A stretch of DNA of 64,000 nt from Gammaproteobacteria bacterium (GTDB taxonomy: Bacteria > Pseudomonadota > Gammaproteobacteria > Acidiferrobacterales > Sulfurifustaceae): the NCBI GenBank assembly GCA_016199745.1, contig JACQFZ010000070.1:62001-126000 (forward strand), in the 5' to 3' direction. The position numbers were made by a program, and so were the translations under genes. Position 1 is the first letter of the stretch. Each line of letters begins with the position of its first letter. The notes under the pieces were generated by a model. The model did not search any database and was not told the origin of the DNA. It saw nothing but the letters and a program-made list of their open reading frames with translations. Below, piece after piece: positions 16,308-29,938 of the stretch.

Positions 16308-17024
16308 ATGAGCAAACTCATCATCAAATATAACGAGGCCGTGATCGACCATATCGAGCTGCGCCAAGGCGATATGAAGATCGGTCGTCGGTCGGGATGC
16401 GAGATTGTCCTTGATCACTTAGCGATCAGTGGTGAACATGCGAATATCTTTACCATCGGCGGTGATTCCTTCATTCAGGACTTGAACAGCACCAACGGTA
16501 CCTTCATCAACAACAAGCGCGTCGCCAAGCATCATCTACGCAACGGTGACACGATCAGCATCGGTCAGCATTCGCTGGTTTATTTGAATGAACCGGCGTT
16601 CCAAGATACGCACGAAGGCGACACCTTGGCGAAAACGGTAGTGATCAATCCGTCTGCACCGGTAGCGCCGACGCCCGCGCGTGCCTCAACAGCGACACCG
16701 ACGCCGGCCCCGGCGCCCGATCGACCACTGCCGGAGGTGAAACCCGCAGCGCCAACGATCGAGCGGCGCGGCACGCTATTCGTGCTTGACGGCGCTAACA
16801 GCGGTAAACGCATCGAGCTCACCAAAGCGGTAACCAATCTCGGCAAGACCGGCAAGCAGGCCGGGGTCATCACCCGCACCAGCGACGGCTACATGCTGGA
16901 AGCGTCAAAAGAAGGCGACATCCCGAAGGTCAACGGCCGGGCCATCTCGTCCAGCGGTAACAAACTGCGCAACGGCGACATCATCGAAGTCGCCGGCATT
17001 CGCGTGCAGTTTTATCTGAAGTAA
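16308..17024 (+). CDS. FHA-domain phosphothreonine-binding protein (copy 1)
   Basis: A 238-residue protein with an N-terminal FHA domain (about 1-85) holding the phosphothreonine-binding signature GRRSGCEIVL, SGEHANIF and NSTNGTFINNKRV. A Pro/Ala/Thr-rich linker (about 100-145) follows, then a second, degenerate FHA-like domain from GTLFVLDGANSGKRIEL to the end. It probably docks phosphorylated partners of the phosphatase system next door (inference). It is paralogous to the protein at 18076, sharing about 60 % identity by eye in the first domain. Confidence 0.9.
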   Translation: MSKLIIKYNEAVIDHIELRQGDMKIGRRSGCEIVLDHLAISGEHANIFTIGGDSFIQDLNSTNGTFINNKRVAKHHLRNGDTISIGQHSLVYLNEPAFQDTHEGDTLAKTVVINPSAPVAPTPARASTATPTPAPAPDRPLPEVKPAAPTIERRGTLFVLDGANSGKRIELTKAVTNLGKTGKQAGVITRTSDGYMLEASKEGDIPKVNGRAISSSGNKLRNGDIIEVAGIRVQFYLK

Positions 17025-17049
17025 ACGCCTTCACCATCGCAGCGGCTAT

Positions 17050-17086
17050 GGCGTCAGGGCAATACCGGACTGACGCCTTGCTTCTT
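17050..17086 (+). terminator. Probable intrinsic terminator after FHA copy 1
   Basis: An 8-bp stem (GGCGTCAG at 17050-17057, CTGACGCC at 17070-17077) with a 12-base loop is followed by the T-rich TTGCTTCTTT. It lies 26 bases after the FHA stop and just before the LysR start. It would separate the phosphatase-FHA unit from the LysR gene. Confidence 0.6.
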
Positions 17087-17099
17087 TGCGAAACCCCAC

Positions 17100-18005
17100 A
17101 TGCGGCGAAAAATACCTAGCATTGAAGCGCTGGTCGCATTCGAGGCGGCGGCGCGGCATCAAAGCTTTACACGTGCCGCCGATGAGCTGGCACTGACGCA
17201 AAGTGCAGTCGGTCGGCAAATTGTTCTACTCGAAGAATATCTCGGCGTCCTGCTGTTCAACCGAATTAAGAAACGCGTCAGCCTGACCGAGATCGGGCAA
17301 CTCTACGCTAAAGAGATCCGCGAAGACCTGAACAATATCGAACGGCACACGTTGGCGGCGATGTCACATCATGGCGTCGGCGGCGTACTCGAGCTTGCCG
17401 TCATACCGACCTTCGCCTCGCGCTGGCTGATCCCGCGGTTGCCGCAGTTCTACGCCCTCTGGCCCGACATCACCCTCAATTTGACCACACGCGCCGAGCC
17501 GTTTTTATTTACCGATACGCCATTCGATGGCGCCATTCATTTCGGCAGCCCGATCTGGCCGGGAACGGTAGTCGAGCATTTGTTCGGTGAAGAGATGGTG
17601 CCGGTCTGCAGCCCGAACATATTGGCAGGCCGTTCCGAGTTGCTGCCAAGCGATATGGAAAAATATAACTTGCTGCATCAATCGGCACGGCCGGACGCCT
17701 GGCGTCAGTGGTTCGCGCAGGCCGGCATTTCGCATTTCAACGGCATGAAAGGCGCACGCTACGAATTGTTCTCAATGTTGGTGGAAGCGGCGCGCGCCGG
17801 GCTTGGCATCGCCCTGGTGCCGCGATTCTTGGTGCTAAGCGAACTGGCGGAAAGCTCGCTGTGTATTCCGTGTCATTTGTCGCTTCGCAGCGAACAGGGC
17901 TACTACCTGGCTTATCCCGAGCGCAAACAGAGCTCGGCGCTGGTACAGGCATTCAAAGAATGGTTGCTTAGCGCGGCCAAACAGTATCGCCAGCTGAATC
18001 TTTAA
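17100..18005 (+). CDS. LysR-type transcriptional regulator, GcvA-like
   Basis: A 301-residue LysR regulator. The N-terminal winged helix-turn-helix spans residues 5-65, with ALVAFEAAARHQSFTRAADELALTQSAVGRQI and the wing FNRIKKRVSLTEIGQ. The effector-binding domain (about 92-295) contains LELAVIPTFASRWLIPRLP and GLGIALVPRFL, as in the GcvA/AmpR branch. It lies between two paralogous FHA genes on the same strand. The target and effector are unknown; being wedged in the FHA pair suggests insertion after duplication rather than shared function. Confidence 0.9.
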   Translation: MRRKIPSIEALVAFEAAARHQSFTRAADELALTQSAVGRQIVLLEEYLGVLLFNRIKKRVSLTEIGQLYAKEIREDLNNIERHTLAAMSHHGVGGVLELAVIPTFASRWLIPRLPQFYALWPDITLNLTTRAEPFLFTDTPFDGAIHFGSPIWPGTVVEHLFGEEMVPVCSPNILAGRSELLPSDMEKYNLLHQSARPDAWRQWFAQAGISHFNGMKGARYELFSMLVEAARAGLGIALVPRFLVLSELAESSLCIPCHLSLRSEQGYYLAYPERKQSSALVQAFKEWLLSAAKQYRQLNL

Positions 18006-18075
18006 CGGTAAGTCGTTCTAGTGGCGTGCATAAACCGGAGTACTACACTTTCTTGGAAGCAAGGAGCGAAACGCC

Positions 18076-18714
18076 ATGAGCAAGATCGTCATCAAGCATC
18101 ACGATGCCGTCGTCGGTAACTTCGATCTAAAGGACGGCGACGCCAAAATCGGCCGGCGCGCCGGCTGCGACATTCATCTCGACCATCTGGCGGTGAGCAG
18201 CGAACACGCGAGAATATCGACCGTCGACGGCGAATCGTTCCTGCAAGACCTCAGCAGCACCAACGGCACCTTCATCGACAACAAGCGCGTCAGTCGCCAT
18301 CATCTTGCTCATGGCGACGTTGTCATCATCGGCGAGTACGCACTGGTTTACTTGGACGCACAATCGAAAAAAGGCGAAGGAGCAACGAATAAAACGTCAT
18401 CGGACATGCCTGATCCGGCGGTGCCGGACGCCGATAATCTGACAGTTCGCGTGAAGCACGGCCAGCTGTTCGTACTAGAAGGTACTAACAGCGGCAAACG
18501 TATCGACCTGGCGAAGGCAGTCACCAATCTCGGAAAAACCGGAAAACACTCCGGCACCGTAACCCGCACGGTCGACGGCTATGTGCTGCAAGCAAGCGGC
18601 GAATCGGACAAACCCAAACTAAACGGTCAGGCCGTGCCCGCCGCCGGCGTAAAACTGCGTAACGGCGACGTCATCGAAATTACCGGCGCGCGTCTCCAGT
18701 TCTATCTGAAGTAA
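18076..18714 (+). CDS. FHA-domain phosphothreonine-binding protein (copy 2)
   Basis: A 212-residue paralogue of the protein at 16308, with the same two-domain plan. The N-terminal FHA domain contains GRRAGCDIHL, SSEHARIS and SSTNGTFIDNKRV. The linker is short and charged. The C-terminal FHA-like domain runs from GQLFVLEGTNSGKRIDL to RLQFYLK. It lacks the long Pro/Ala linker of copy 1. An AAGGAG Shine-Dalgarno sequence precedes the ATG. It ends 11 bases before the convergent astE stop, with no terminator visible in between. Confidence 0.9.
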   Translation: MSKIVIKHHDAVVGNFDLKDGDAKIGRRAGCDIHLDHLAVSSEHARISTVDGESFLQDLSSTNGTFIDNKRVSRHHLAHGDVVIIGEYALVYLDAQSKKGEGATNKTSSDMPDPAVPDADNLTVRVKHGQLFVLEGTNSGKRIDLAKAVTNLGKTGKHSGTVTRTVDGYVLQASGESDKPKLNGQAVPAAGVKLRNGDVIEITGARLQFYLK

Positions 18715-18725
18715 ATCGTTCTGCC

Positions 18726-19688
18726 CTACTCGACCGGCGCGATCAATAACCCCGCACGCTCTCCTGGGTCGACCTTCGGATTGGGGAAAATAATCCGCTC
18801 CAATGGCGCGCCGACTCGATAGGTCACATCGACGTCGGTCGCTACCACATGATCGCGCGGAAACGGCGTGAAGTTGGGAACATCGGTGGCGAATGACAAC
18901 TTAAACTGCGAAGTGCGTTTAACGATTTCGGTCGTTACCTTGAAAGTAGCGATCGCGCTTGCCCGTGAGTTATCAACAAGTGATCCGGTGCGCACGAGCC
19001 GGTCGAGGGCGTTGCGGAAGTTTTCTAGGACCGAGGTATCGTGACTGCCGAATCGGCCGATGCGACCGAGCTCGAGCGTGCATGAGGTAGCGCCGAGCTT
19101 GGCGGTGTAAGACGAGAAAGTCGACGCCGGCAGGTCGTTGAAGACCACTGCATCGACATCCGCCGCACTCAACCATGCCGCCAACTCGTCGCAGCGCTGC
19201 GCATCGGTTTGCCGCGGCACGACAGCGAAGCGCGGGAACAGCGACGGCCGAATAGTCGAATGCAGGTCGAGGTGCCACTGGCGCGCTGCCGTTGCTTTGC
19301 CGCTCGCCAAAAAATCGCCGGCAGCTGCCATTAATTGCGCGGCACGCGCCGTTTCATAGGCGCTGTGATCCGGCCGCAAACCCTCGACAAACAGCCGATT
19401 GAGATCGCGATCGACGTAGCGATGGGATTTTTTGATCGCCGCTAAATTACCGACACACAGCAAAAGATCGACTTGTTGCGCCTGCGGCTCGCGCTGCCAC
19501 TCGGCCAACAGCTGAGCCAACATCTCGATCGGGCCGGTTTCATCGCCGTGAATCCCGACCGATATGAGCAATTGCACCGGCGCTGGCTTGGGGGAATAAA
19601 ACCGCCAAATCTCTTCACCGAGAGGGTCGACGCGAAATCCCGCAGCACGAAAATCCGCTTGGGCGGTGTCAAAGTCGATAGGATGCAA
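18726..19688 (-). CDS. astE: Succinylglutamate desuccinylase AstE/AruE
   Basis: Last enzyme of the arginine succinyltransferase pathway: N2-succinylglutamate to glutamate plus succinate. It is a zinc M14-like hydrolase of 320 residues. Zinc ligands fall in SVGIHGDETGP (His, Glu) and WHLDLHSTIRP (His); SHRYVDRDLNRLF is a family block. The start is a TTG at 19688 with a good AGGTAAGG Shine-Dalgarno sequence that overlaps the end of the glutamate dehydrogenase gene, so translation is probably coupled. It ends the six-gene operon. Confidence 0.93.
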   Translation of the reverse strand: MHPIDFDTAQADFRAAGFRVDPLGEEIWRFYSPKPAPVQLLISVGIHGDETGPIEMLAQLLAEWQREPQAQQVDLLLCVGNLAAIKKSHRYVDRDLNRLFVEGLRPDHSAYETARAAQLMAAAGDFLASGKATAARQWHLDLHSTIRPSLFPRFAVVPRQTDAQRCDELAAWLSAADVDAVVFNDLPASTFSSYTAKLGATSCTLELGRIGRFGSHDTSVLENFRNALDRLVRTGSLVDNSRASAIATFKVTTEIVKRTSQFKLSFATDVPNFTPFPRDHVVATDVDVTYRVGAPLERIIFPNPKVDPGERAGLLIAPVE

Positions 19689-19696
19689 TCGTTACC

Positions 19697-22600
19697 TTAC
19701 CTCGAATAGCTTTCGCGCGCCTCTTCCAGGCGCTCGGCCAATTGCCAGGCATGATACGCCAATTCTTCGCGCGCTGACGTCAAGTTCGAGTTGGCCTGCA
19801 GCCGGGCGATTTCGGCACGCATATCGCCAAAGCCCATTCGCTGCAGTAATTCGGTCAATATCTGCGTCACCTTAACCGGATTCGCCGCCGCCGACTGTCG
19901 CAACACGTGCTCGGCAAAATAAACCACTTGCCGACGCAACGCCGAGATCGCGAATTCGAAAGCGTTACTGCCCCGACTACCGGCCTTGGCAACTTCCAGC
20001 AACGCAATCAATTGCTGTAGACCGGTCTCTTCGCTGACGAGTCGCAGTGTCGTTAGCGTCGCTTGCGGATCGGACTCCTGCTTGGTAATCAGCTTGAGCG
20101 CCGAGGTGATTTGCGTGACCGCTTCGTTCAAACCGAGGATGTACTGAACCGCCGCTGCCGGCGACGACGCCGACGCATTGGCGCTGCCGATCGCTCGGAC
20201 CGACGACTCGACCGCTTGCGATACCACTTTCCAGCCGTTTGCCGTGAGATAACGCGGGCGATTCAGGAAGAAAATAACCGAGGTCTCGATCATCTCCTCC
20301 AACGTCCTATCGAAGTCGTCACGATGCGCGACATCGGATTGACATATCACGTCGTCCCAACGCTCGCATACTTGATTGAGTCCGAACGCGGTGTACACGT
20401 AAGCAAATACGTTCAACACACGATCGAGCGGAACGCCATACGATGAAGCGATGCCATGCGCAAAATCGAGCCCGGCTCGGTTCACGCATTCGTTGGCAAT
20501 GAGTGTGGAAGTAATTTGATGGCGCAACGGATGCGACAAGATCTTGTCGGACTGAACAGCTTTCGGGAAATAGCCGGTAAAAAATGCCTGGCTCCACAAC
20601 CGATCCAGATGATCGGTGCCAACCAATGATGCCTTGAGCGACGACTTGGCGTAAGCCAATACGACCGACAACTCGGGCAATACCAGACAGGCAGTACCAA
20701 GTGCCGCGCGTCGGTCAACGGTGTCGTTGTTCGGCAGGTTTTCGAGTTTACGATCGAGTGTGGAATGTTGTTCGAGTTGCACCAACAGTGACTTGATACG
20801 TCCGGCATCGCGACCACTGGCACGGGTCTCGCGTGCCAAACGACGCGCCTGACCGGAATTATTTTTCAGCACTAAGCGCTCGACATCGCCCGCCATCGAT
20901 GCCAGCAATTGATTACGCTGTTCGTTGCTGAGATCGCCGTCGAAGCATTGATCGAGCAAAATCTTTAGATTAACTTCGTGATCGGAACAATCGACACCGG
21001 CAGAATTATCGATGGCGTCGGTATACACCAAGCCGCCGCGGCTGGCGAATTCGATGCGCGCTTTCTGCGTCATGCCGAGATTACCGCCTTCGACTGCCAA
21101 CCGACATCGCAGGTCGGCCGCATTGACCCGGATTGAGTCGTTGGTCCGGTCGCGTGCATCCTCGTGTGATTGGTCCGACGATTTAATGAAAGTGCCAATA
21201 CCGCCGTTATAAAGCACTGTGACCGGCGCTTGCAGAATGATGCGCGCCAGCTCATCGGGTGTCACTTTGCTGTGTTCGGTACCGAGCGCAGCACGCGCCG
21301 CCGCGGACAACGTGATCGATCGTGCTTGCCGCGACCAGATGCCACCGCCCTTAGAAATCAATTCGCGCTGATAGTCATCCCAGGAAGAACGCGGCAGATT
21401 GAACAAACGCTTACGCTCGGCATAAGCGGCAGCAACATCCGGGGTCGGATCAACAAAGATGTGGCGATGATCGAACGCGGCCAATAGCCGCATGTTCGGC
21501 ATCAATAAGGAACCGTTACCGAATACGTCGCCGCCCATGTCACCGATACCGACAGCGGTAAACGGCTCCTGCTGCCAGTTGACGCCAAGCTCGGAGAAAC
21601 GGATCTTGGCCGTCTCCCATGTGCCCTTCGATGTGATACCGAGCTTCTTGTGGTCGTAACCGTTAGAACCGCCGGAAGCGAAGGCATCGCCCAACCAGAA
21701 TCCGCGGGCAACGGCAATCGCGTTAGCGCGATCGGAGAATGTGGCCGTGCCTTTATCGGCGGCGACTACCAAATATGGATCGTCCTCGTCGTGGCGCACC
21801 ACGTCGGTCGGCGGAATTACCGTGCCGGCTTTAAGATTGTCGGTAATGTCGAGCAAGGCGTTGATGAAATGCTCGTAGACCGCGACACCTTCGGCCGCCA
21901 CTTCGTCGCGCGTCGCCGATTCGGGCGTGATCGAACGGCAGACGAAACCGCCCTTCGCGCCGGTCGGCACAATGATGGCGTTCTTCACCATCTGCGCCTT
22001 TACTAGATCAAGCACCTCGGTGCGGAAATCTTCCATGCGATCGGACCAGCGCAGGCCACCGCGAGCAACCGGACCGCCGCGCAGATGCACCGCATGAAAC
22101 CGCGGCGACAATACGAAAATTTCGCGATACGGCCGTGGTCGTGGCAAGAAGTTAATCTTCTCGCCACAGATTTTGATGGCGATGTAATCGGGCAACTGAT
22201 ACGCCTGCCAGTTGATGTAGTAACTGGTGCGAACGGTGGCGTCGAGCACCTCGTCGAGTTTGCGTAATACCTCTTCACTGTCCGGATGAACAATGGCAGC
22301 AACGTAGTTCTGGAATTGTTCGCGCTTGGCGGCGACGTCGGCAGCGCGAGTGGCGGCAGCGCGCCGCGGATTGAATTTAGCGTCGAAGATCTCGGTCCAT
22401 GTCCGAATCGCGTCCGGATAGCGGCGCAGACTTTCGGCCATATAACTCAAGCTGAAACGCAGACCGGCTTGGCGCAGGTAACTGGCGTAGGTTCGGACCA
22501 ACATAATTTGCCGCACCGACAAACCAGCGACAATCGCCAAACCATTGAGTCGACCGTCTTCCGCTTCGCCGGTGAACAACCGGCTCAATAGATCATTCAA

Positions 22601-22873
22601 CCCGGTTTGATCTTTGATCGCTTGCAGCCGCTTGCTCGAATCGGCGTCGAGCACCAATTCCGATACCGACGCGCCGGCCAAATGTACCGGGCTGTCGCTA
22701 CCGACTTGCCGTTCGACGAACAATCCCATGTTGTGCAACCCCGGCAACAAATGGGACAACGCCGGCAACACCGTCGCCTCGATGCGGATGGCAACGCGTT
22801 CGCCGACTTTACTTAACGCCACCCGTAAATGGCGTTCGCTCATACCTGCTAATTCGCGTATTTGCTGACCCAT
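19697..22873 (-). CDS. NAD-dependent glutamate dehydrogenase, short form lacking the usual N-terminal third
   Basis: Oxidatively deaminates glutamate to 2-oxoglutarate, the logical outlet for glutamate made by the AST pathway. It is related to the large bacterial NAD-GDH family (COG2902). That family is usually about 1,600 residues; this protein has 1,058. It begins just before the helical region preceding the catalytic domain. The catalytic block includes RGGPVARGGLRWSDR (about 265-279) and KNAIIVPTGAKGGF (298-310). The C-terminal domain is complete. In P. aeruginosa the arginine-induced GdhB serves arginine use (established). No coding remnant of the missing part was found in the AT-richer 225-bp gap upstream. 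It could be a natural short form or a trimmed gene. Confidence 0.88.
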   Translation of the reverse strand: MGQQIRELAGMSERHLRVALSKVGERVAIRIEATVLPALSHLLPGLHNMGLFVERQVGSDSPVHLAGASVSELVLDADSSKRLQAIKDQTGLNDLLSRLFTGEAEDGRLNGLAIVAGLSVRQIMLVRTYASYLRQAGLRFSLSYMAESLRRYPDAIRTWTEIFDAKFNPRRAAATRAADVAAKREQFQNYVAAIVHPDSEEVLRKLDEVLDATVRTSYYINWQAYQLPDYIAIKICGEKINFLPRPRPYREIFVLSPRFHAVHLRGGPVARGGLRWSDRMEDFRTEVLDLVKAQMVKNAIIVPTGAKGGFVCRSITPESATRDEVAAEGVAVYEHFINALLDITDNLKAGTVIPPTDVVRHDEDDPYLVVAADKGTATFSDRANAIAVARGFWLGDAFASGGSNGYDHKKLGITSKGTWETAKIRFSELGVNWQQEPFTAVGIGDMGGDVFGNGSLLMPNMRLLAAFDHRHIFVDPTPDVAAAYAERKRLFNLPRSSWDDYQRELISKGGGIWSRQARSITLSAAARAALGTEHSKVTPDELARIILQAPVTVLYNGGIGTFIKSSDQSHEDARDRTNDSIRVNAADLRCRLAVEGGNLGMTQKARIEFASRGGLVYTDAIDNSAGVDCSDHEVNLKILLDQCFDGDLSNEQRNQLLASMAGDVERLVLKNNSGQARRLARETRASGRDAGRIKSLLVQLEQHSTLDRKLENLPNNDTVDRRAALGTACLVLPELSVVLAYAKSSLKASLVGTDHLDRLWSQAFFTGYFPKAVQSDKILSHPLRHQITSTLIANECVNRAGLDFAHGIASSYGVPLDRVLNVFAYVYTAFGLNQVCERWDDVICQSDVAHRDDFDRTLEEMIETSVIFFLNRPRYLTANGWKVVSQAVESSVRAIGSANASASSPAAAVQYILGLNEAVTQITSALKLITKQESDPQATLTTLRLVSEETGLQQLIALLEVAKAGSRGSNAFEFAISALRRQVVYFAEHVLRQSAAANPVKVTQILTELLQRMGFGDMRAEIARLQANSNLTSAREELAYHAWQLAERLEEARESYSR

Positions 22874-23098
22874 GAAGAATTAATTATCGCTTTGATTATG
22901 AAAATGAAGGATGAAACAAGTATAGCGGCAATGTCGTGCGAGCAAGAAGACGATCGTTGTATAAGTGTTAAGTGAAGAACCGTCTGCAAGTATACAAGTG
23001 ATTTATAGTGTAGACCTTGTGCGTTTCAAGAAGGAACTCAGGGGTAACAGCGGGCGCGCTACCTGGTTTCCCTCTTTAATCAGAAAACTTTTATTGTT

Positions 23099-24562
23099 TT
23101 ACAAACTTAATCCAGGACTGAGGTCGGAGGGTAGAGCCAATTCAGCAGTTTCCAATGAGACCACTGGATAGGCGCAGTAGTCGGCGGCATAGAACGCGCT
23201 CGGACGATGATTGCCGGATCGACCGACTCCGCCGAAAGGCGCACTGCTGGAAGCACCCGTCGTTGGTCGATTCCAATTGACGATGCCGGCACGCACATGA
23301 GCGAAGAACTGCTCGTACAACGCACGGTCTTCACACAACAAACCGGCGGCAAGTCCATACGTCGTTTGATTGGCGCTGGCGATCGCATCGGCGAATGTCG
23401 GTACCCGAATGATTTGCAACAACGGACCGAATATTTCTTCGTCACGGCATTCGCTAATGGCGCTGACATCGACAATGCCCGGCGAGAGAAATCCGCTGGA
23501 GCGATCGGCGTATTGCATAGCCAACAACGGCTTCGCGCCGGCACGAACCAGCGTCTCATAAAAGGAATAAATTCCGGCTGCCGTTTTGGCCGATACCACC
23601 GGCCCCATGAACGGTTGCGGATCGGCATCCCACTTGCCAATGCGCAGCCGCGCTGTCACATCGACTAATCGCGCCAACAAACATTCGCCGTCGGCGTCGT
23701 CGGCAACGATCAGGCGCCTAGCACACGTACAACGTTGGCCGGCGCTGACGAATGCCGACATGACGATGTGATGCACGGCGGCATCGATATGGCGCACTTG
23801 CCATGCCACCAGCGGATTATTGCCGCCCATTTCCAGCGCCAGCATCTTTTCTGGACGGCCGGCAAATTGCTGATGCAACGCAACGCCGGTTTGATAGCTG
23901 CCGGTAAAAAGCACACCGTCGATCGTATCGTGTCCGGTCAACGCCATTCCCGTATCACGTCCGCCGTTCACCACGTTCAGTACACCCGCCGGCAAACCGG
24001 CACGCGCCCATACATCCACCGTTAACAATCCCACGCGCGGCGCGAACTCGCTCGGCTTGAAAACGACGGTATTGCCCGCGAGCAGCGCCGGCACGATGTG
24101 ACCATTCGGTAAATGACCGGGAAAGTTGTACGGCCCGAGCACCGCGAGCACTCCATGCGGCTTGTGACGCAGCGCGCTGTCCGCTTCCGCAGTCGCGGTC
24201 ACGTTGGTACCGGTGCGTTGATCGTAGGCGCGTAATGAGATGTCTACTTTATTGATCATCGACGCGACTTCGGTGCGCGCTTCCCACAACGGTTTACCGA
24301 TCTCTTGACCGATCGCGCGAGCGATATCGTCTTTCGCTTTGCTTAACTCCTCCTTAAAGCGAACGATCACCGCCGCACGATCAACAGGCGGCAACAATGC
24401 CCAGCTGGGGAATCGTGCCTTCGCTGACTCGCAGGCGGCGGCGACATCGGCGGCGCTAGCGGTGCGGCCTTGCCAAACGACCTGCCCAGTCGCTGGACAA
24501 ACCGACTGTAATGGTTCGCCGGTTCCGTCGATTCGCTGACCATTAATAAAGTGACTTGCCAT
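23099..24562 (-). CDS. astD: Succinylglutamate semialdehyde dehydrogenase AstD/AruD
   Basis: NAD-dependent aldehyde dehydrogenase oxidising N-succinylglutamate 5-semialdehyde to succinylglutamate. It has 487 residues, family length. Conserved blocks: GPYNFPGHLPNGHIVPALLAGN, FKPSEFAP, FTGSYQTG, the catalytic-Glu segment LALEMGGNNP and the catalytic Cys in SAGQRCTCARRL. Its ATG shares one base with the aruG stop (TAATG). The gap to the next gene (glutamate dehydrogenase) is 225 bp and AT-richer; astB, which normally follows astD in Pseudomonas, is not there. Confidence 0.95.
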   Translation of the reverse strand: MASHFINGQRIDGTGEPLQSVCPATGQVVWQGRTASAADVAAACESAKARFPSWALLPPVDRAAVIVRFKEELSKAKDDIARAIGQEIGKPLWEARTEVASMINKVDISLRAYDQRTGTNVTATAEADSALRHKPHGVLAVLGPYNFPGHLPNGHIVPALLAGNTVVFKPSEFAPRVGLLTVDVWARAGLPAGVLNVVNGGRDTGMALTGHDTIDGVLFTGSYQTGVALHQQFAGRPEKMLALEMGGNNPLVAWQVRHIDAAVHHIVMSAFVSAGQRCTCARRLIVADDADGECLLARLVDVTARLRIGKWDADPQPFMGPVVSAKTAAGIYSFYETLVRAGAKPLLAMQYADRSSGFLSPGIVDVSAISECRDEEIFGPLLQIIRVPTFADAIASANQTTYGLAAGLLCEDRALYEQFFAHVRAGIVNWNRPTTGASSSAPFGGVGRSGNHRPSAFYAADYCAYPVVSLETAELALPSDLSPGLSL

Positions 24563-25593
24563 TAAGATCGCGTTCCTGCGGTCAGTGTCATCAATCGAAT
24601 GGTGTCACCCGCCTGAATCCGCAAGGCCTCGAGCTCGGCGTCGCTCAAGTGAAAATTCCCGGACTTCAATTGACCGGAAGCGACGATGGCACGAAAGCCG
24701 TCGCGCCGGGTATTGCTGACGAGGAAACGGCTGTCGTCGACGTGCTCGTCGTCGCCGGCCTGCGCAATAGCAAGCTGACTTTCGCGAATTGCCCGCAGTT
24801 GCTGCGAGCGCCCTTGCAGTACCGGACCGGCATCGAAGATGTCGATATAACCTTCGTAGTGCATGCCCTCCTCTTCCAACAACCGCTTGGCCGGTACGGT
24901 ATCGACATGCACTTCGCCGAGCACTGCCTTCGCCTCATCGGTCAGGTAGTCGACGTAAACCGGATACTTCGGCATAAGCTCAGCGATAAATGATTTTTTA
25001 CCTAAGCTCATTAAATCGTCCGCGCGCGCGAATTCCATTTTGAAGAAATGGCGACCCAGGCTGTCCCAAAACGGCGACGTGCCGTCGTGCCGCTGGAACC
25101 CGCGCATCTCGGCGATCACTACATCGGGAAACAAGTCGACGAACTGCGCCATGAACAGAAAGCGCGCCTTCGACAACAGCTTGCCATTGGTACCGGTGCG
25201 GAAAGACGGACCCAGATAAAGGCTGCAGAGCTCGGCACAACCGGTTAAATCGCACGATAGGTACAACATCTCCTTACACGCATAAACACCGAGATCGGTG
25301 CTCGAATGCACTAATCGTCCGACCCGAAAATTGTAGAAGGGTTCGGTGAGGCCGACCGCCGCTTTGATCGCGCTGATACCGACGACTTGCGCCGACCCCG
25401 TGTCTTCCATGATGAATACGTAATCCGCTTGGGCGGCGGCCAATCGCCCTTCGAATGAAGCGCACGCAATCTGCAGACGTTTTTGCAGGGCTGGCTCGTC
25501 CGGTTTCAACGTCGTCATACCGGAGCCGACTTGACGGACGAGCGTTACCAGTCCGGGCAAATCCGCCGCTTCAATGGCGCGCATGACGAACAT
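24562..25593 (-). CDS. aruG: Arginine/ornithine N-succinyltransferase subunit beta (AruG/AstA)
   Basis: First AST enzyme: transfers succinyl from succinyl-CoA to the alpha-amino group of arginine. It is a GNAT-like AstA fold of 343 residues. The start MFVMRAIEAADLPGLVTLVRQVGSG matches AstA. Other blocks: CSLYLGPSFRTGTNGKLLSKARF, AEMRGFQRHDGTSPFWDSLGRHFF, KRLLEEEGMHYEGYIDIFDAGP. ATG 25593 lies just after the aruF stop; a TTG at 25599 overlapping that stop as TTGA is the alternative. It pairs with the aruF product as the heteromeric enzyme of Pseudomonas. Confidence 0.94.
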   Translation of the reverse strand: MFVMRAIEAADLPGLVTLVRQVGSGMTTLKPDEPALQKRLQIACASFEGRLAAAQADYVFIMEDTGSAQVVGISAIKAAVGLTEPFYNFRVGRLVHSSTDLGVYACKEMLYLSCDLTGCAELCSLYLGPSFRTGTNGKLLSKARFLFMAQFVDLFPDVVIAEMRGFQRHDGTSPFWDSLGRHFFKMEFARADDLMSLGKKSFIAELMPKYPVYVDYLTDEAKAVLGEVHVDTVPAKRLLEEEGMHYEGYIDIFDAGPVLQGRSQQLRAIRESQLAIAQAGDDEHVDDSRFLVSNTRRDGFRAIVASGQLKSGNFHLSDAELEALRIQAGDTIRLMTLTAGTRS

Positions 25594-25595
25594 CG

Positions 25596-26615
25596 TCAAC
25601 CCTCGGCAACCATGACGCGCATTCCCGCTTCGATCTCGAGCGCGTGGAATGTCGCCGGCGGTAGATAAATACAGTTATCTGACGGCTGTACCTCGGCATC
25701 GGTGAGCACGCAACGAAAGTCGGAGAACCGGTTGCACGACACTAAAAATTGGCGCCGTTGGTCGCGAGTTTGGGCCGCCGGCTTGGCGACGAGCGTAGTC
25801 GCCGTCGTCAACGATTTGATCTGCGATCGATGCGCTTGCAGTATCGGACCGCCATCGAAAATGTCGATGTACTTGCCCGGTTGCAACCCTTCCTTATTAA
25901 GGATCTCGAACGGCAACTCGCTGGCGGGATGCGGTTTGCCCAGACAATTCTTGGCGCTGTCCGGCAACAAAGCGGCATAGATCGGGTAATACGGCATGAG
26001 CTCGACAATCAATGTTCGGTTGCGCGCGCCTTGCACCGCCTGCTCCGCTTGTAGGTAGTCCATGCCGAAAAATTTTCGACCGATCGCTTCCCAGAACGGC
26101 GATTGCCGGTCAGCGTCGTTCCAACCAGCAAGCGAAACAAAAAAACCGTCGGCGAATCGTTGCGGCGCCAATGTCGCCAACATCAGGCGGGCCCGCGACA
26201 ACAAATCGGCGCCGCTGCGATCGACGCTCGCCGGCCGGGCAAAAAAGCTCAAGAGCTGCGAATAGCTGGTCAGGTCCGAGCACAACGTCAACACTTGCAC
26301 GTCGTGGGCGATACGCAAGTCGCGCGCCACCTGGTTGATCACGTCGTTACGGAAGGCGAAAAACGTTCCATCGGCGCCGGCGGTTGCACTGACCGCCGCG
26401 ACGCCGCCGAGCCCGCCGTCGGCATCTTGCAGCACCAAAACATAGAACTCGTTGCTCGGCGCGATAACCGCGCTAGCGAACGAAAGCAGCGAACGCTCGA
26501 TATAGCGACCGACGTCCGCCGCTGTACGCGGCAAGGTGTGCACCAACGTCGCCTGTTTCGCCAAGGCGACGAGCTGCTCGGCATCACTGGCCTGCGCCGG
26601 TCGAACTACCCACAT
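25596..26615 (-). CDS. aruF: Arginine/ornithine N-succinyltransferase subunit alpha (AruF)
   Basis: Paralogue of aruG and the second AstA-type subunit. It has 339 residues starting MWVVRPAQASDAEQLVALAKQA. It shares the family segments SFFARPASVDRSGADLLSRARLM, GWNDADRQSPFWEAIGRKFFGMDY and LNKEGLQPGKYIDIFDGGPILQ. Tandem aruF-aruG encodes a heteromeric succinyltransferase in Pseudomonas, whereas Escherichia has a single astA; this locus is Pseudomonas-like. It begins 24 bases after the aruC stop. Confidence 0.93.
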   Translation of the reverse strand: MWVVRPAQASDAEQLVALAKQATLVHTLPRTAADVGRYIERSLLSFASAVIAPSNEFYVLVLQDADGGLGGVAAVSATAGADGTFFAFRNDVINQVARDLRIAHDVQVLTLCSDLTSYSQLLSFFARPASVDRSGADLLSRARLMLATLAPQRFADGFFVSLAGWNDADRQSPFWEAIGRKFFGMDYLQAEQAVQGARNRTLIVELMPYYPIYAALLPDSAKNCLGKPHPASELPFEILNKEGLQPGKYIDIFDGGPILQAHRSQIKSLTTATTLVAKPAAQTRDQRRQFLVSCNRFSDFRCVLTDAEVQPSDNCIYLPPATFHALEIEAGMRVMVAEG

Positions 26616-26639
26616 GCCGCTCGTTCCTTAAAAGGCGCG

Positions 26640-27890
26640 CTAGCGAGGAAGCGTAACGACGAATGCCTCGGCGGCGCGCGTAAGTTTTTCCAGTGCCTCG
26701 TCGATCTCGGCATCGCTGACCACCAGCGCCGGCAACAGGCGGACGACATCGAGACCGGCGCTGAGGACTAATAGCTTGTGCTTCTCCGTCAATTTCTGAA
26801 ACTCCTTGGCTTTGCCTTTAGCCGCCCGGCTCAAAGCAACGCCGAGCATCAGGCCTTTGCCGCGAATGTGATCGAACGCCTGCGGGAATCGAGCGACGAG
26901 TTTTTCGAGCCCGCTCCACAAACGCTGGTGGGCAACTTGCACGCGCGCCAGAAATGCCGCGTCGTTAATAGCGGTGACTACGGCAAGCGCCACTGCTGCC
27001 GCCAACGGATTGCCGCCGAAGGTGGTGCCGTGGGTCGCGACGCTGAAATGCTTGGCGATGTTCTTCGTCGTCAACATGGCGCCGATCGGAAAGCCGTTGC
27101 CGAGTGCTTTCGCGGTCGTGAGGATATCGGGTGTGATGCCGTATTGTTGGTAAGCGTACAGCGAGCCGATCCGACCCAATCCACACTGCACTTCATCGAA
27201 AATGAGCAGCGCACCGGTGGCGTTGCAGCGTTCGCGCAGGACCCGCAGGAACTGCGCCGACGCCGGAACGATGCCACCCTCACCTAATACCGGTTCGACA
27301 ATGACCGCGCATACGTCGTCACGAATGGCGTCCGCCGCCGCCACGGGATCGTTAAACGGAATGTGATCGATCTTTGCCGGCAACGGGCCGAAGCCATCCT
27401 GGTACTTCGGCTGACCGCCGACGGAAACGGTAAAGAAGGTCCGCCCATGGAACGATTGCTGGCAGGAAATAATGCGGCGCTTATCGGTGCCGGCTTGTTT
27501 CCGCGCCAACTTCAACGCCGCCTCGTTCGCTTCCGCACCGGAGTTACAAAAGAAGGCTTGCTCGGCGAAGGTCGCCTCGGTCAGCGCTGACGCTAGACGC
27601 AGTACCGGCTCGTTGGTGAAGCCGTTACTGATATGCCACAACGCATGGGCTTGGTCGACGAGCGCTTTAACGACTGCTTCGTGGCCGTGGCCGAGGCTGG
27701 TAACGCCGATGCCGCTGGTGAAATCGAGGTAACACTCGCCGCCTTGATCGTATAACCGCAGTCCTTGGCCACGCACCGGCAATACTTGGCTTGGCGCATA
27801 CACCGGCACCATTAGTTGGTCGAACGTCGAACGGTCGACGGGTAATTGATGGGAACTGGAATCGGTGGCGGGCTGGCGGGCGACCTTCAT
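26640..27890 (-). CDS. aruC: Succinylornithine/acetylornithine aminotransferase AstC/AruC
   Basis: Class III PLP aminotransferase converting N2-succinylornithine to the semialdehyde. Related enzymes also act on acetylornithine and succinyl-diaminopimelate. It has 416 residues. Motifs: YLDFTSGIGVTSLGHGH, FFCNSGAEANEAALKLAR, HGRTFFTVSVGG, IFDEVQCGLGRIG and the PLP-lysine segment TAKALGNGFPIGA. First gene of the AST operon. A GGAGAGAGG Shine-Dalgarno sequence ends three bases before the ATG. Its N-terminus (about 25 residues) is longer than in E. coli AstC. Confidence 0.94.
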   Translation of the reverse strand: MKVARQPATDSSSHQLPVDRSTFDQLMVPVYAPSQVLPVRGQGLRLYDQGGECYLDFTSGIGVTSLGHGHEAVVKALVDQAHALWHISNGFTNEPVLRLASALTEATFAEQAFFCNSGAEANEAALKLARKQAGTDKRRIISCQQSFHGRTFFTVSVGGQPKYQDGFGPLPAKIDHIPFNDPVAAADAIRDDVCAVIVEPVLGEGGIVPASAQFLRVLRERCNATGALLIFDEVQCGLGRIGSLYAYQQYGITPDILTTAKALGNGFPIGAMLTTKNIAKHFSVATHGTTFGGNPLAAAVALAVVTAINDAAFLARVQVAHQRLWSGLEKLVARFPQAFDHIRGKGLMLGVALSRAAKGKAKEFQKLTEKHKLLVLSAGLDVVRLLPALVVSDAEIDEALEKLTRAAEAFVVTLPR

Positions 27891-27918
27891 AAACCTCTCT
27901 CCATGACGCTATATAAGA

Positions 27919-27949
27919 AGTATATGGGGTCCGGGGAGCAGCCGTACAA
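27919..27949 (-). promoter_or_regulatory. Candidate promoter of the AST operon
   Basis: On the minus strand, TTGTAC (27949-27944) and TATACT (27924-27919) stand 19 bases apart and 29 bases before the aruC ATG. The -10 box is good; the spacing is long. The -35 box lies inside direct-repeat copy 1 and the -10 box just outside it, so the repeat boundary cuts the promoter. Confidence 0.4.
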
Positions 27950-28095
27950 CGAACCGACATAGGCAGCTTTTTGCCGATTTCTGAGCAGTCTCGTAGTGAC
28001 TAAATAAATCCGCAGCGGACCAAGCAATGATTAATTTTCTGCAGTTTTTTTTGCACTATGTTGGTGGAATGTTCGTTTACTCCCCGAACCCTTAC
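27925..28095. repeat. Direct repeat copy 1 (about 171 bp) flanking the accessory cassette
   Basis: This segment is repeated in the same orientation at 29584-29752 with about 96-97 % identity. Differences seen by eye are a 2-base length change in a T-run and four or five substitutions. It begins TGGGGTCCGGGGAGCAGCC and ends CCCCGAACCCTTAC. Both copies contain an ATG followed by INFL codons, and a segment encoding MFVYSPNPY. The inverted hexamers GGTCCG and CGGACC lie near its start and middle. Between the copies sits a 1.49-kb block with a three-gene operon. Confidence 0.9.
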
Positions 28096-28200
28096 CTGTG
28101 CAAGGACTACGTGGCGTTACTCAAAGCCTACGGATTGGAAAATTCCAACTCCGCTAATGGCAATCCGTACCATAAGCAGCAGACTACTCGCGACATGTGA
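28027..28200 (+). CDS. Possible 57-residue unknown protein starting inside repeat copy 1
   Basis: An ATG at 28027 opens a 57-codon frame, beginning MINFLQFFLHYVGGMFVYSPNPY, that runs out of the repeat into unique DNA and ends at TGA 28198-28200. Residues 3-15 are hydrophobic. No Shine-Dalgarno sequence is evident and no family is recognised. In repeat copy 2 the same start is frameshifted by the shorter T-run. It may be a small gene, or only a decaying copy of one. Confidence 0.25.
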   Translation: MINFLQFFLHYVGGMFVYSPNPYLCKDYVALLKAYGLENSNSANGNPYHKQQTTRDM

Positions 28201-28284
28201 AACGAGGCGTTAGGCTCGTTAGCGTAACGTGCGACTTTTCCTAGTCCGGTAGAGAAGATGAGGACTGATGATGTGAGGAGAAAC

Positions 28285-28314
28285 GGTAGCCGGCGATTAA
28301 AACGACCGGCTACC
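28285..28314 (-). terminator. Hairpin terminator of the three-gene accessory operon
   Basis: A perfect 9-bp stem (GGTAGCCGG at 28285-28293, CCGGCTACC at 28306-28314) with a 12-base loop begins 8 bases after the stop of the 62-residue gene on the minus strand and is followed there by GTTTCTCC. The T-tract is short. Read on the plus strand it is followed by TTTCTT, so it may work both ways. Confidence 0.65.
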
Positions 28315-28322
28315 TTTCTTAA

Positions 28323-28511
28323 CTACTTACTTTGCGGATCAGTATCAGGCGCCGTTTCGAGTTCAACCCTAAACTCACGGAATCCACGATGCGCAATGAT
28401 AGCCTGCTCCACTCTTGCCGCGTTGCGCTCGATCCGAGCACTATTCTGTTCGAGCTTCTTGCGCATGGTTTCAATATCGTCTTTCTCGATATCAATCTTG
28501 CTGCTAGTCAT
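28323..28511 (-). CDS. Small unknown charged protein, third gene of the accessory operon
   Basis: A 62-residue protein starting MTSSKIDIEKDDIETMRKKLEQ. It is strongly charged and predicted mostly helical over residues 8-42 (repeated E/K/R with IERNAARVEQAII), possibly a short coiled coil, with an acidic Pro-containing tail. I do not recognise a family. ATG 28511 follows GGAGGGG with ideal spacing and overlaps the stop of the 67-residue gene by 8 bases, so it is very likely translated. An upstream in-frame start at 28541 is less well placed. Its size and charge suit an antitoxin or adaptor, but this is speculation. Confidence 0.7.
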   Translation of the reverse strand: MTSSKIDIEKDDIETMRKKLEQNSARIERNAARVEQAIIAHRGFREFRVELETAPDTDPQSK

Positions 28512-28707
28512 CTTTCCCCTCCAACATTCTTTTCCGGTCACGACGTAAGTTGAATTTGCTAGGGCGCGTTAATGCTCCCGTCGGCTCGTCGTTGACGTTG
28601 ATTTTGGCACGCGCCACTGCGTCGTCCAATTCAGCGTTGCGCTTGTCCAAGATCTCTTGGATCTCTTTCATGCCTTCGGGCGTAAATGGATCGATTTTGC
28701 GTTTCAC
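28504..28707 (-). CDS. Small unknown charged protein, second gene of the accessory operon
   Basis: A 67-residue protein beginning KRKIDPFTPEGMKEIQEILDK, with a helical N-terminal half and a basic tail RRDRKRMLEGKDD. No family recognised. The start is GTG 28707 with a perfect AGGAGG five bases upstream, and it overlaps the stop of the 182-residue gene as GTGA. The downstream 62-residue gene overlaps its end by 8 bases. This tight coupling argues that all three products are made together. Confidence 0.7.
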   Translation of the reverse strand: MKRKIDPFTPEGMKEIQEILDKRNAELDDAVARAKINVNDEPTGALTRPSKFNLRRDRKRMLEGKDD

Positions 28708-29252
28708 AAAATCCTCCTCTGACCAAGGCGGCCAGGATGGTACACCTGTGGACTACTGAACTGTTCCTGGCTGTACAAATCCACCAAGTCTGCGTCTGGA
28801 TCTAAGATCCAGATCTCCGATGCGCCAACCAATTCTGCAAACGTTACGCCTGCCTGTACTATTATCGGCACAGCGCGCATACCGAGCACCGACGGTTTGA
28901 TCGGCGATGACTCTATTAAGTCTAGCCTAGTGTGCCTACCCGCTCGTGACGTGCGGCCATAACACAAGGCGCCTAGTTGACCACTCTGGGATAATGCAAT
29001 CTCGAACCGGTTCGGTTGATTTTGATAGAGTGTAAACTGCTCCGCCCAATACCAAGGAGCTCGCTTTTCCCGCAAATTTGACCCGGTCATGGTTTTCCAC
29101 CTGTCTGCGGTCATACAGTCGTGAAACGTAATGCCGGCTGCAGTAACGGAAAACTTCTTCTTAATTGTCTCGTACACCAGTTCACGAATTTGTAGATAAC
29201 GATCTTCGGTTTGCTGGTGGTCGACACGACGCAGTTTTTCTTCGTCAAACAC
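28704..29252 (-). CDS. GNAT-like unknown protein, first gene of the accessory operon
   Basis: A 182-residue protein. GTG 29252 follows AGGGAG with 8-base spacing. Residues about 82-165 resemble a GNAT acetyltransferase core: strand NRFEIALSQSGQLGALCYGR (81-100), strand TRLDLIESSP (108-117), a helix VPIIVQAGVTFAELVG (128-143), then SEIWILDPDADLVDLYSQEQF (145-165), like the closing strand-helix-strand of GNAT enzymes. The acetyl-CoA P-loop (Q/RxxGxG/A) is not obvious, so activity is uncertain. This is inference from pattern. It is AT-richer than its neighbours and sits in a repeat-flanked block, so it was probably acquired. A GNAT toxin or modifier with small partners is one idea. Confidence 0.65.
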   Translation of the reverse strand: MFDEEKLRRVDHQQTEDRYLQIRELVYETIKKKFSVTAAGITFHDCMTADRWKTMTGSNLREKRAPWYWAEQFTLYQNQPNRFEIALSQSGQLGALCYGRTSRAGRHTRLDLIESSPIKPSVLGMRAVPIIVQAGVTFAELVGASEIWILDPDADLVDLYSQEQFSSPQVYHPGRLGQRRIL

Positions 29253-29377
29253 GTTATAAGCTCCCTGTGGTGGTTGTTGGTCTCGGCAAGGTATAACCGC
29301 AACATGTCACGCATTACCGCGCGGCACTCTATTGCACCGAGACTTGCGACGGAAATCAAGCCAATCCATATGAACGA

Positions 29378-29662
29378 ATGTGCCGGATCGCTCCAATACG
29401 GCGGTGCAGGTTTGTCACTGCCCTACTGGAAGGGCGTCAACCCGCTAGATTGAGCGCTTACGTGCTATGCGACCGACATGGGTTGTCCATGTCGGTCGAT
29501 GGCGACGCGTTGCTTGCAACACTAAATCGTAACTTCGCGTTTGCGCGTGAGCCGCAACAAGTCCTCTCTATACTTGATGAAATTGGGGTCCGGGGAGCAG
29601 CCGTACAACGAACCGACATAGGCAGCTTTTTGCCGATTTCTGAGCAGTCTCGTAGTGACTAA
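29378..29662 (+). other. Doubtful open frame ending inside repeat copy 2
   Basis: A plus-strand frame, possibly starting at ATG 29489, encodes a segment ending LSILDEIGVRGAAVQRTDIG and then SFLPISEQSRSD before the stop. Only its last 25 codons lie in the repeat; copy 1 has the same 3' end with unrelated sequence and a stop upstream. If real, the repeat carries the 3' end of a gene, as att sites often do. No Shine-Dalgarno sequence, and no family recognised. Confidence 0.25.
29470..29498. other. Perfect 12-bp hairpin in the accessory block
   Basis: CGACCGACATGG (29470-29481) and CCATGTCGGTCG (29487-29498) form a perfect stem with a 5-base loop. No T-run follows, so it is not a standard terminator. 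It covers a possible ATG at 29489 and lies 86 bases before repeat copy 2. The surrounding 29253-29583 stretch holds no other gene I can support. Confidence 0.6.
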
Positions 29663-29752
29663 ATAAACCCGCAGCGGACCAAGCAATGATTAATTTTCTG
29701 CGGTTTTTTACACTATGTTGGTGGAATGTTCGTTTACTCCCCGAACCCCTAC
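29584..29752. repeat. Direct repeat copy 2 (about 169 bp)
   Basis: Second copy of the repeat at 27925-28095, same orientation, offset 1,659 bases. The T-run after CTGCGG is two bases shorter than in copy 1. The sequence beyond the repeat up to radA (29753-29938) is open as a 74-codon frame from ATG 29726, which overlaps the 3' end of radA and looks spurious. No gene is supported in 29753-29938. Confidence 0.9.
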
Positions 29753-29938
29753 ATCGGCAGTCTGCGTGCCCTGTCTTCAGGTCGCGCCCTATACGATGCA
29801 GTTCGACCATTATGCGTCAGCACCGGCAGCCATCAGCGGTACCTGTTTCTGGCGTATCGATCCGAGCGCCGACTATGGCAAGTTCAATGCTGGCGCCCGT
29901 CAGCGCATAAGGTGCTAACCACAGGCAGAAGGTGCTTT

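Follow-up and report, generated by a model that had tools for sequence, protein, structure and literature searches.

An AST operon with an N-terminally shortened in-line glutamate dehydrogenase and a separately encoded astB

Genes of the operon

The window, the whole 64,000-nucleotide stretch of DNA analysed here, corresponds to positions 62001-126000 of contig C70. Between positions 18726 and 27890 of its minus strand lie six genes in the order astC-aruF-aruG-astD-gdh-astE. This order, given in an earlier note on this DNA (which labelled the first gene aruC), was borne out, together with the coordinates, by reading of the open reading frames (ORFs) and by matches in NCBIfam and Pfam. The features are listed below, with bit scores set against the family cut-offs.

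26640..27890, minus strand: astC (aruC), succinylornithine transaminase family, 416 aa (PRK05093, 568.6 bits vs cut-off 522)
25596..26615, minus strand: aruF, arginine/ornithine succinyltransferase alpha-type subunit, 339 aa (TIGR03245, TIGR03243, Pfam AstA)
24562..25599, minus strand: aruG/astA, arginine succinyltransferase, 345 aa (TIGR03244, 437.8 bits vs cut-off 391)
23099..24562, minus strand: astD, succinylglutamate semialdehyde dehydrogenase, 487 aa (TIGR03240, 752.8 bits vs cut-off 579.3)
22874..23098, minus strand: spacer of 225 bp, 40% GC, in place of the relatives' astB and roughly first 500 gdh codons (six-frame blastp)
23002..23029, minus strand: promoter-like TTGAAA-N16-TATAAA, 10/12, ahead of gdh (looser scan; weak, consensus match only)
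19697..22873, minus strand: gdh, NAD-dependent glutamate dehydrogenase, 1058 aa (Pfam, alignments, model, PDB superposition)
18726..19688, minus strand: astE, succinylglutamate desuccinylase, 320 aa (PRK05324, 297.1 bits vs cut-off 170)

AruF/AruG, AstB, AstC, AstD, and AstE convert arginine to glutamate and succinate, and glutamate dehydrogenase (GDH) converts glutamate to 2-oxoglutarate, ammonium, and NADH. A large NAD-GDH within an AST operon would carry the glutamate made by AstE on to 2-oxoglutarate, as the earlier note rightly reasoned. We take the Pseudomonas operon to read aruCFGDB-E, and its gdhB to be full length and to lie outside that operon, unlike the gdh of the window. The pathway is the same in that system and GDH is tied to arginine there as well; because gdhB of P. 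aeruginosa is described as arginine-inducible along with the aru operon in PMC9028604, a functional link between GDH and arginine is supported.

Not every NCBIfam cut-off was passed. AstC scored 567.8 bits with TIGR03246 (arg_catab_astC; cut-off 609.95) and AstE 263.4 bits with TIGR03242 (cut-off 305.65). The top match of AruF, TIGR03245, was likewise under its cut-off (295.7 bits vs 458.8), and TIGR03243 passed (288.4 bits vs 284.35). The succinyltransferase pair is of the AruF and AruG/AstA types; since AruF is under the TIGR03245 cut-off, ornithine use by the pair is putative.

Of the five junctions, all but one are tight: astC and aruF are separated by 24 bp, gdh and astE by 8 bp, while aruF overlaps aruG by 4 bases and aruG overlaps astD by a single base. 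The astD/gdh junction, at 225 bp, is the exception, and the GC content of this spacer is 40%, as compared to 57-58% in gdh and astD. Recognisable traces of astB or gdh in the spacer were looked for by blastp in all six frames; the best hit had E 1.8, and the idea of such a remnant was rejected. The standard, stricter scan yielded no promoter-like and no terminator-like site in the 225 bp, and sites from the standard promoter/terminator scan were no more frequent than in shuffles. When the spacer was shuffled 2000 times by mononucleotide, 9.3% of the shuffles contained at least one promoter-like site of the kind returned by the looser scan. Visual inspection of the sequence preceding the gdh start revealed no clear ribosome-binding site.

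astB and the operon in other genomes

The earlier note took AstB to be missing and GDH to occupy its slot, and it proposed a search of the full genome for astB. A profile search with Pfam AstB (PF04996) returned a single strong match in the genome (C70:35875-37188; E 3.8e-193), which rules out loss of astB from the genome. The intact gene is located on the same contig as the window and on the same strand as the operon, approximately 43.5 kb from it.

C70:35857-37194, minus strand: astB, 445 aa (TIGR03241, 645.8 bits vs cut-off 538.3)
L002:5353-7748: Rieske oxygenase and reductase pair adjoining the lone astB (nearest GbcA/GbcB, glycine betaine monooxygenase; both under cut-off)

All five AST steps (A, B, C, D, and E) have predicted genes in this genome. 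A class V aminotransferase forms the other flank of the lone astB; beyond it lie genes that we take, from reading of the ORFs, to be tatD, pilZ, holB, tmk, and mltG. An ORF of approximately 94 aa upstream of the lone astB (L002, between 9195 and 9938) belongs to no NCBIfam family and presumably resembles Cas2-like proteins. Another member of the family, G004, has the run from aminotransferase to mltG with neither astB nor the Rieske pair (19.9 kb read), and G006 and G012 have tatD to mltG, likewise without them. As all three genomes have these surroundings but neither astB nor the pair, the stretch around the lone astB is one that they do not share.

Relatives of the window GDH were collected in one scan of the contigs of named genomes, a sample that leaves out near relatives; the scan matched at least 587, and the best 80 were kept. 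In 17 of these 80 loci (L004-L019 and L022) gdh lies inside an AST operon, and all 17 read astC-aruF-aruG-astD-astB-gdh-astE, with at most 40 bp between astD and astB and 18-309 bp between astB and gdh (the first residue of each query was set to M for this comparison). With gdh directly after astB in every AST-linked locus, the idea that GDH fills the astB slot fails; at the level of the operon the 17 loci show instead the pattern that the earlier note had named as telling against its reading, an adjacent astB among relatives that has been lost from the operon of this genome. By record title, 15 of the 17 belong to Massilia, Janthinobacterium, Duganella, Telluria, Pseudoduganella, or an Oxalobacteraceae bacterium; the remaining two are an uncultured Oxalobacteraceae and L004, which is filed as Burkholderiaceae. 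The other 63 loci, several with short flanks, had no AST protein beside gdh, apart from L037, where an aldehyde dehydrogenase of 28% identity adjoins it. AstB was present in 23 of the 369 genomes of a class-wide draw (this genome counted), and no GDH match was found in the 8-20 kb surrounding AstB in the other 22; the listing of those surroundings kept non-overlapping best matches and left AstB itself unprinted for several loci. Within this sample, the AST+gdh arrangement is limited to one clade and this genome. Among the open-licence literature matches listed (titles and abstract starts), none was found that describes gdh inside an AST operon, which is weak evidence for novelty.

The window operon has the same genes as this Oxalobacteraceae type (Massilia, Janthinobacterium, Duganella, and others), an in-line NAD-GDH included, and the same astC-aruF-aruG-astD and gdh-astE order. 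It differs in that the uninterrupted astD-astB-gdh-astE run that marks the type is broken here, with astB 43.5 kb away and 225 bp between astD and gdh, and in that gdh encodes 1058 aa as compared to open frames of 1570-1672 aa. The ACT3 part of gdh lies 225 bp from astD, as compared to approximately 3.1 kb in L004; the approximately 2.9 kb absent between astD and gdh correspond to astB and the opening 500 or so codons of gdh.

In a tree of 80 core sequences the window GDH was sister to exactly the 17 AST-linked GDHs (SH-aLRT 100), a result obtained by quick search under a simple model and with a long window branch (0.97), for which the program warns of long branches meeting. Trees of AstB (support 99; 17 relatives and 22 class sequences), AstD (99; 17 and 15), AstA (99; 17 and 17), and AstE (100; 17 and only 3) likewise set the window protein beside those 17 relatives. 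By these placements, the window GDH, AstB, AstD, AstA, and AstE descend from the Oxalobacteraceae-type operon lineage. Because the position of AstB in its tree matches that of the operon genes, the lone astB shares the history of the operon and most probably moved out of it. A shared repeat was rejected as the cause of the move: between the spacer or astB flanks and C70:1-18000 plus 28001-126000, the longest non-self match was at most 17 bp.

The setting of the operon bears on its arrival.

17025..29938, no strand: block between an FHA gene and radA, containing, besides the AST operon, a LysR gene, a second FHA gene, and small ORFs

A strong radA match was found in 17 of 19 family relatives. 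An FHA gene lies beside it in 13 of those 17, with 18 bp to approximately 1 kb between match ends; in the window the separation is 12.9 kb. Of the other four, G013, G008, and G010 have no FHA gene in the stretch read, and G019 ends at radA. Neither AstB nor a GDH of the window type was found in the 19 other family genomes, of which only seven combine completeness of 90% or more with contamination of 5% or less. The simplest account is that the AST+GDH operon would have been gained by horizontal transfer, with loss in the other family members as the alternative. A plasmid search returned 38 records, all below 60% identity. The relatives read have a single FHA copy, which the first FHA gene (16308-17024) matches more closely than does the second (18076-18714), the neighbour of astE. 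A direct repeat of 167 bp, 97% identical, occurs at 27925-28091, upstream of astC, and at 29584-29748, near radA; small ORFs lie between the copies, along with a 182-aa ORF (28704-29252) that has no Pfam or NCBIfam match.

The shortened glutamate dehydrogenase

Stop-to-stop frames were at least 1570 aa long in 76 of the 80 GDH homologues (best 80 of at least 587), the other four running off a contig end, and all four further homologues within the order were 1629-1677 aa; the window gdh is roughly 500 codons shorter at its N-terminal end than every complete homologue seen. The protein had no NCBIfam match. Pfam Bac_GDH_CD (PF05088) matched residues 189-680 with 751 bits, and this catalytic domain with its conserved core is that of the large NAD-GDHs. 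In L004 and L006, Pfam recognised ACT1, HM1, ACT2, ACT3, HM3, the catalytic domain, and the C-terminal domain, as compared to only HM3, catalytic, and C-terminal domains in the window GDH. Its ACT3, which Pfam did not recognise, was seen by alignment and in a structural model, both of which put the start of the protein at a domain boundary, beginning with ACT3. The absence of ACT1, HM1, and ACT2 follows from Pfam and length, and that of PAS from length alone.

Within residues 40-840 of the window GDH, a column was considered near-invariant if no more than one of the 79 other sequences disagreed. The window GDH kept 169 of 173 such core columns at an identity of approximately 50% to its nearest relatives and departs from the remainder through E260H, G289D, S458M, and T661A. 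The other 79 sequences miss 0-4 of these columns (median 0), a range whose highest count the window GDH ties. The RGGLRWSDR, KAQ, GAKGG, and GVDCSDHEVN motifs, which we take to hold catalytic residues, are unaltered.

An AlphaFold2 model of the window GDH (20 sequences; pLDDT 78.7, pTM 0.73) superposed on residues 501-1588 of chain 7jsr_B over 1015 residues (Z 36.5, rmsd 6.8, identity 36%); rows 7-50 of the structural comparison (VIA-align) cover the catalytic part only. The modelled N-terminus runs strand-strand-helix-strand-strand-helix, the order given for ACT* of mycobacterial GDH in PMC8175468. That paper describes residues 1-500 as flexible, attributes the subunit contacts to ACT2, ACT3, and the C-terminal domain, and proposes, but does not show, that the N-terminal segment transmits metabolic signals. 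Residues 501-1588 of L-GDH180 from Mycobacterium smegmatis (PDB 7jsr, 7a1d), comprising ACT3, HM3, and the catalytic and C-terminal domains, match the model of the window GDH; residues 1-500 (ACT1, PAS, and further parts; PMC8175468) have no counterpart in it. On its domain content, the superposition, and the contacts described, the window GDH corresponds to the mycobacterial enzyme minus its arm, with two of the three contact domains kept.

Tree and fold both indicate descent from the L-GDH180 class, although the window protein, at 1058 aa, lacks the subunit of approximately 1600 aa with ACT1, HM1, and ACT2 ahead of ACT3/HM3 that characterises this class. Its subunit size is instead that of the L-GDH115 class, approximately 115 kDa (class sizes, and the Nocardia farcinica protein as an example, from PMC8175468), to which it is likened by size alone; unlike that class, by its tree it stems from a lineage of full-length enzymes. 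We infer that the window gene encodes an N-terminally trimmed large GDH that is predicted still to assemble and to catalyse.

The gdh frame might instead be a decaying remnant, dead or dying, left when the deletion of astB also cut into gdh, but we consider this improbable. The loss of roughly 500 codons beside another lost gene is in its favour, as is the lack, among the 80 loci (best 80 of at least 587), of any complete homologue of 1058-aa length. The branch lengths point the same way in part: within GDH, the window branch exceeds the mean path to the relatives in the catalytic domain (ratio 1.35) and the C-terminal part (1.49) but not in the HM3 stretch (0.66); the ratio is 1.28 for AstB and 0.72-0.87 for the slower AstD, AstA, and AstE. 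The GDH rate signal is mixed, and the faster GDH and AstB branches could reflect mild relaxation. Against decay, all 1058 codons are unbroken, the start coincides with a domain boundary, and near-invariant residues are retained to the extent described above despite the low overall identity. This is also the only GDH found: a search of the genome revealed no other, large or small, and the idea that a second GDH does the work was rejected on that ground. The shortened gene was seen in this genome only.

A proposed arginine route and its alternatives

The reading we favour, and consider probable, is a working AST pathway whose genes have been split: a gained AST+GDH operon, later divided, would provide a complete route from arginine to 2-oxoglutarate with a GDH that lacks the flexible arm. 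The proposed order of events is as follows: an ancestral astC-aruF-aruG-astD-astB-gdh-astE operon, as in Oxalobacteraceae-type bacteria, would have entered the lineage between the FHA gene and radA, as is suggested by the fact that these flanking genes are neighbours in most family relatives read. A rearrangement would then have set astB alone approximately 43.5 kb away, strand unchanged, and removed roughly the first 500 codons of gdh. In the present cell, AruF/AruG would succinylate arginine, AstB, encoded elsewhere, would yield succinylornithine, and AstC, AstD, and AstE would yield glutamate and succinate. The shortened GDH, keeping ACT3, HM3, and the catalytic and C-terminal domains, may still assemble and oxidise this glutamate to 2-oxoglutarate, ammonium, and NADH, without the flexible N-terminal arm that is the proposed metabolite sensor. 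The pathway is ordinary; the rearrangement is unusual. Against this reading stand the fast GDH and AstB branches, the four altered near-invariant residues, the lack of a clear ribosome-binding site before gdh, the failure of Pfam to recognise ACT3, and the occurrence of the shortened gene in this genome only.

An assembly artefact, with astB and a full-length gdh in place on the true chromosome, is unlikelier than decay. The genome is a draft of 72 contigs and the junction is known from the assembly alone, but what lies there is a distinct AT-rich spacer, not a fused frame, and the lone astB lies in a different, ordered neighbourhood. Nor was the missing N-terminal part found in the assembly when that of the L004 GDH was searched against the genome (a search run without a positive control, in which divergence could hide a weak match).

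Of the other arginine routes that the earlier note proposed to look for, arginase was found and arginine deiminase was not. No deiminase matched anywhere in the genome in a family search that was positive in 3 of 14 control genomes. The arginase, at 281 bits vs a cut-off of 227.6, offers an alternative entry to ornithine; the carB-like gene before it was presumptively identified by reading of its ORF.

G000:C71:197292-198176 (L151:1483-2457): rocF-type arginase, directly downstream of the carB-like gene

That astB is absent, with GDH in its place and the operon specialised for ornithine, as the earlier note suggested, is very improbable: the aruF/aruG pair, an arginase that could feed ornithine, and the second, partial AST operon for ornithine reported for Acinetobacter in PMC12375414 are in its favour, but astB is present and intact, its tree position agrees with that of the operon genes, each of the 17 AST-linked loci has gdh after astB, and with AstB present an ornithine route is not required.

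For the split but working pathway, the findings correct a false gap in a catabolic pathway and document a kind of AST operon into which an NAD-GDH is built, common to 17 named loci (best 80 of at least 587). They also supply a large GDH truncated naturally at its N-terminus, in which the missing flexible arm is the part proposed to be regulatory in PMC8175468. More tentatively, the truncation may be a natural deletion of a sensor arm, with a 180-kDa allosteric GDH trimmed to a 115-kDa enzyme that would assemble through ACT3 and the C-terminal domain, would be unresponsive to metabolites, and would be controlled mainly by gene expression. If so, this organism would offer a ready-made test of the role of the first 500 residues in large GDHs.
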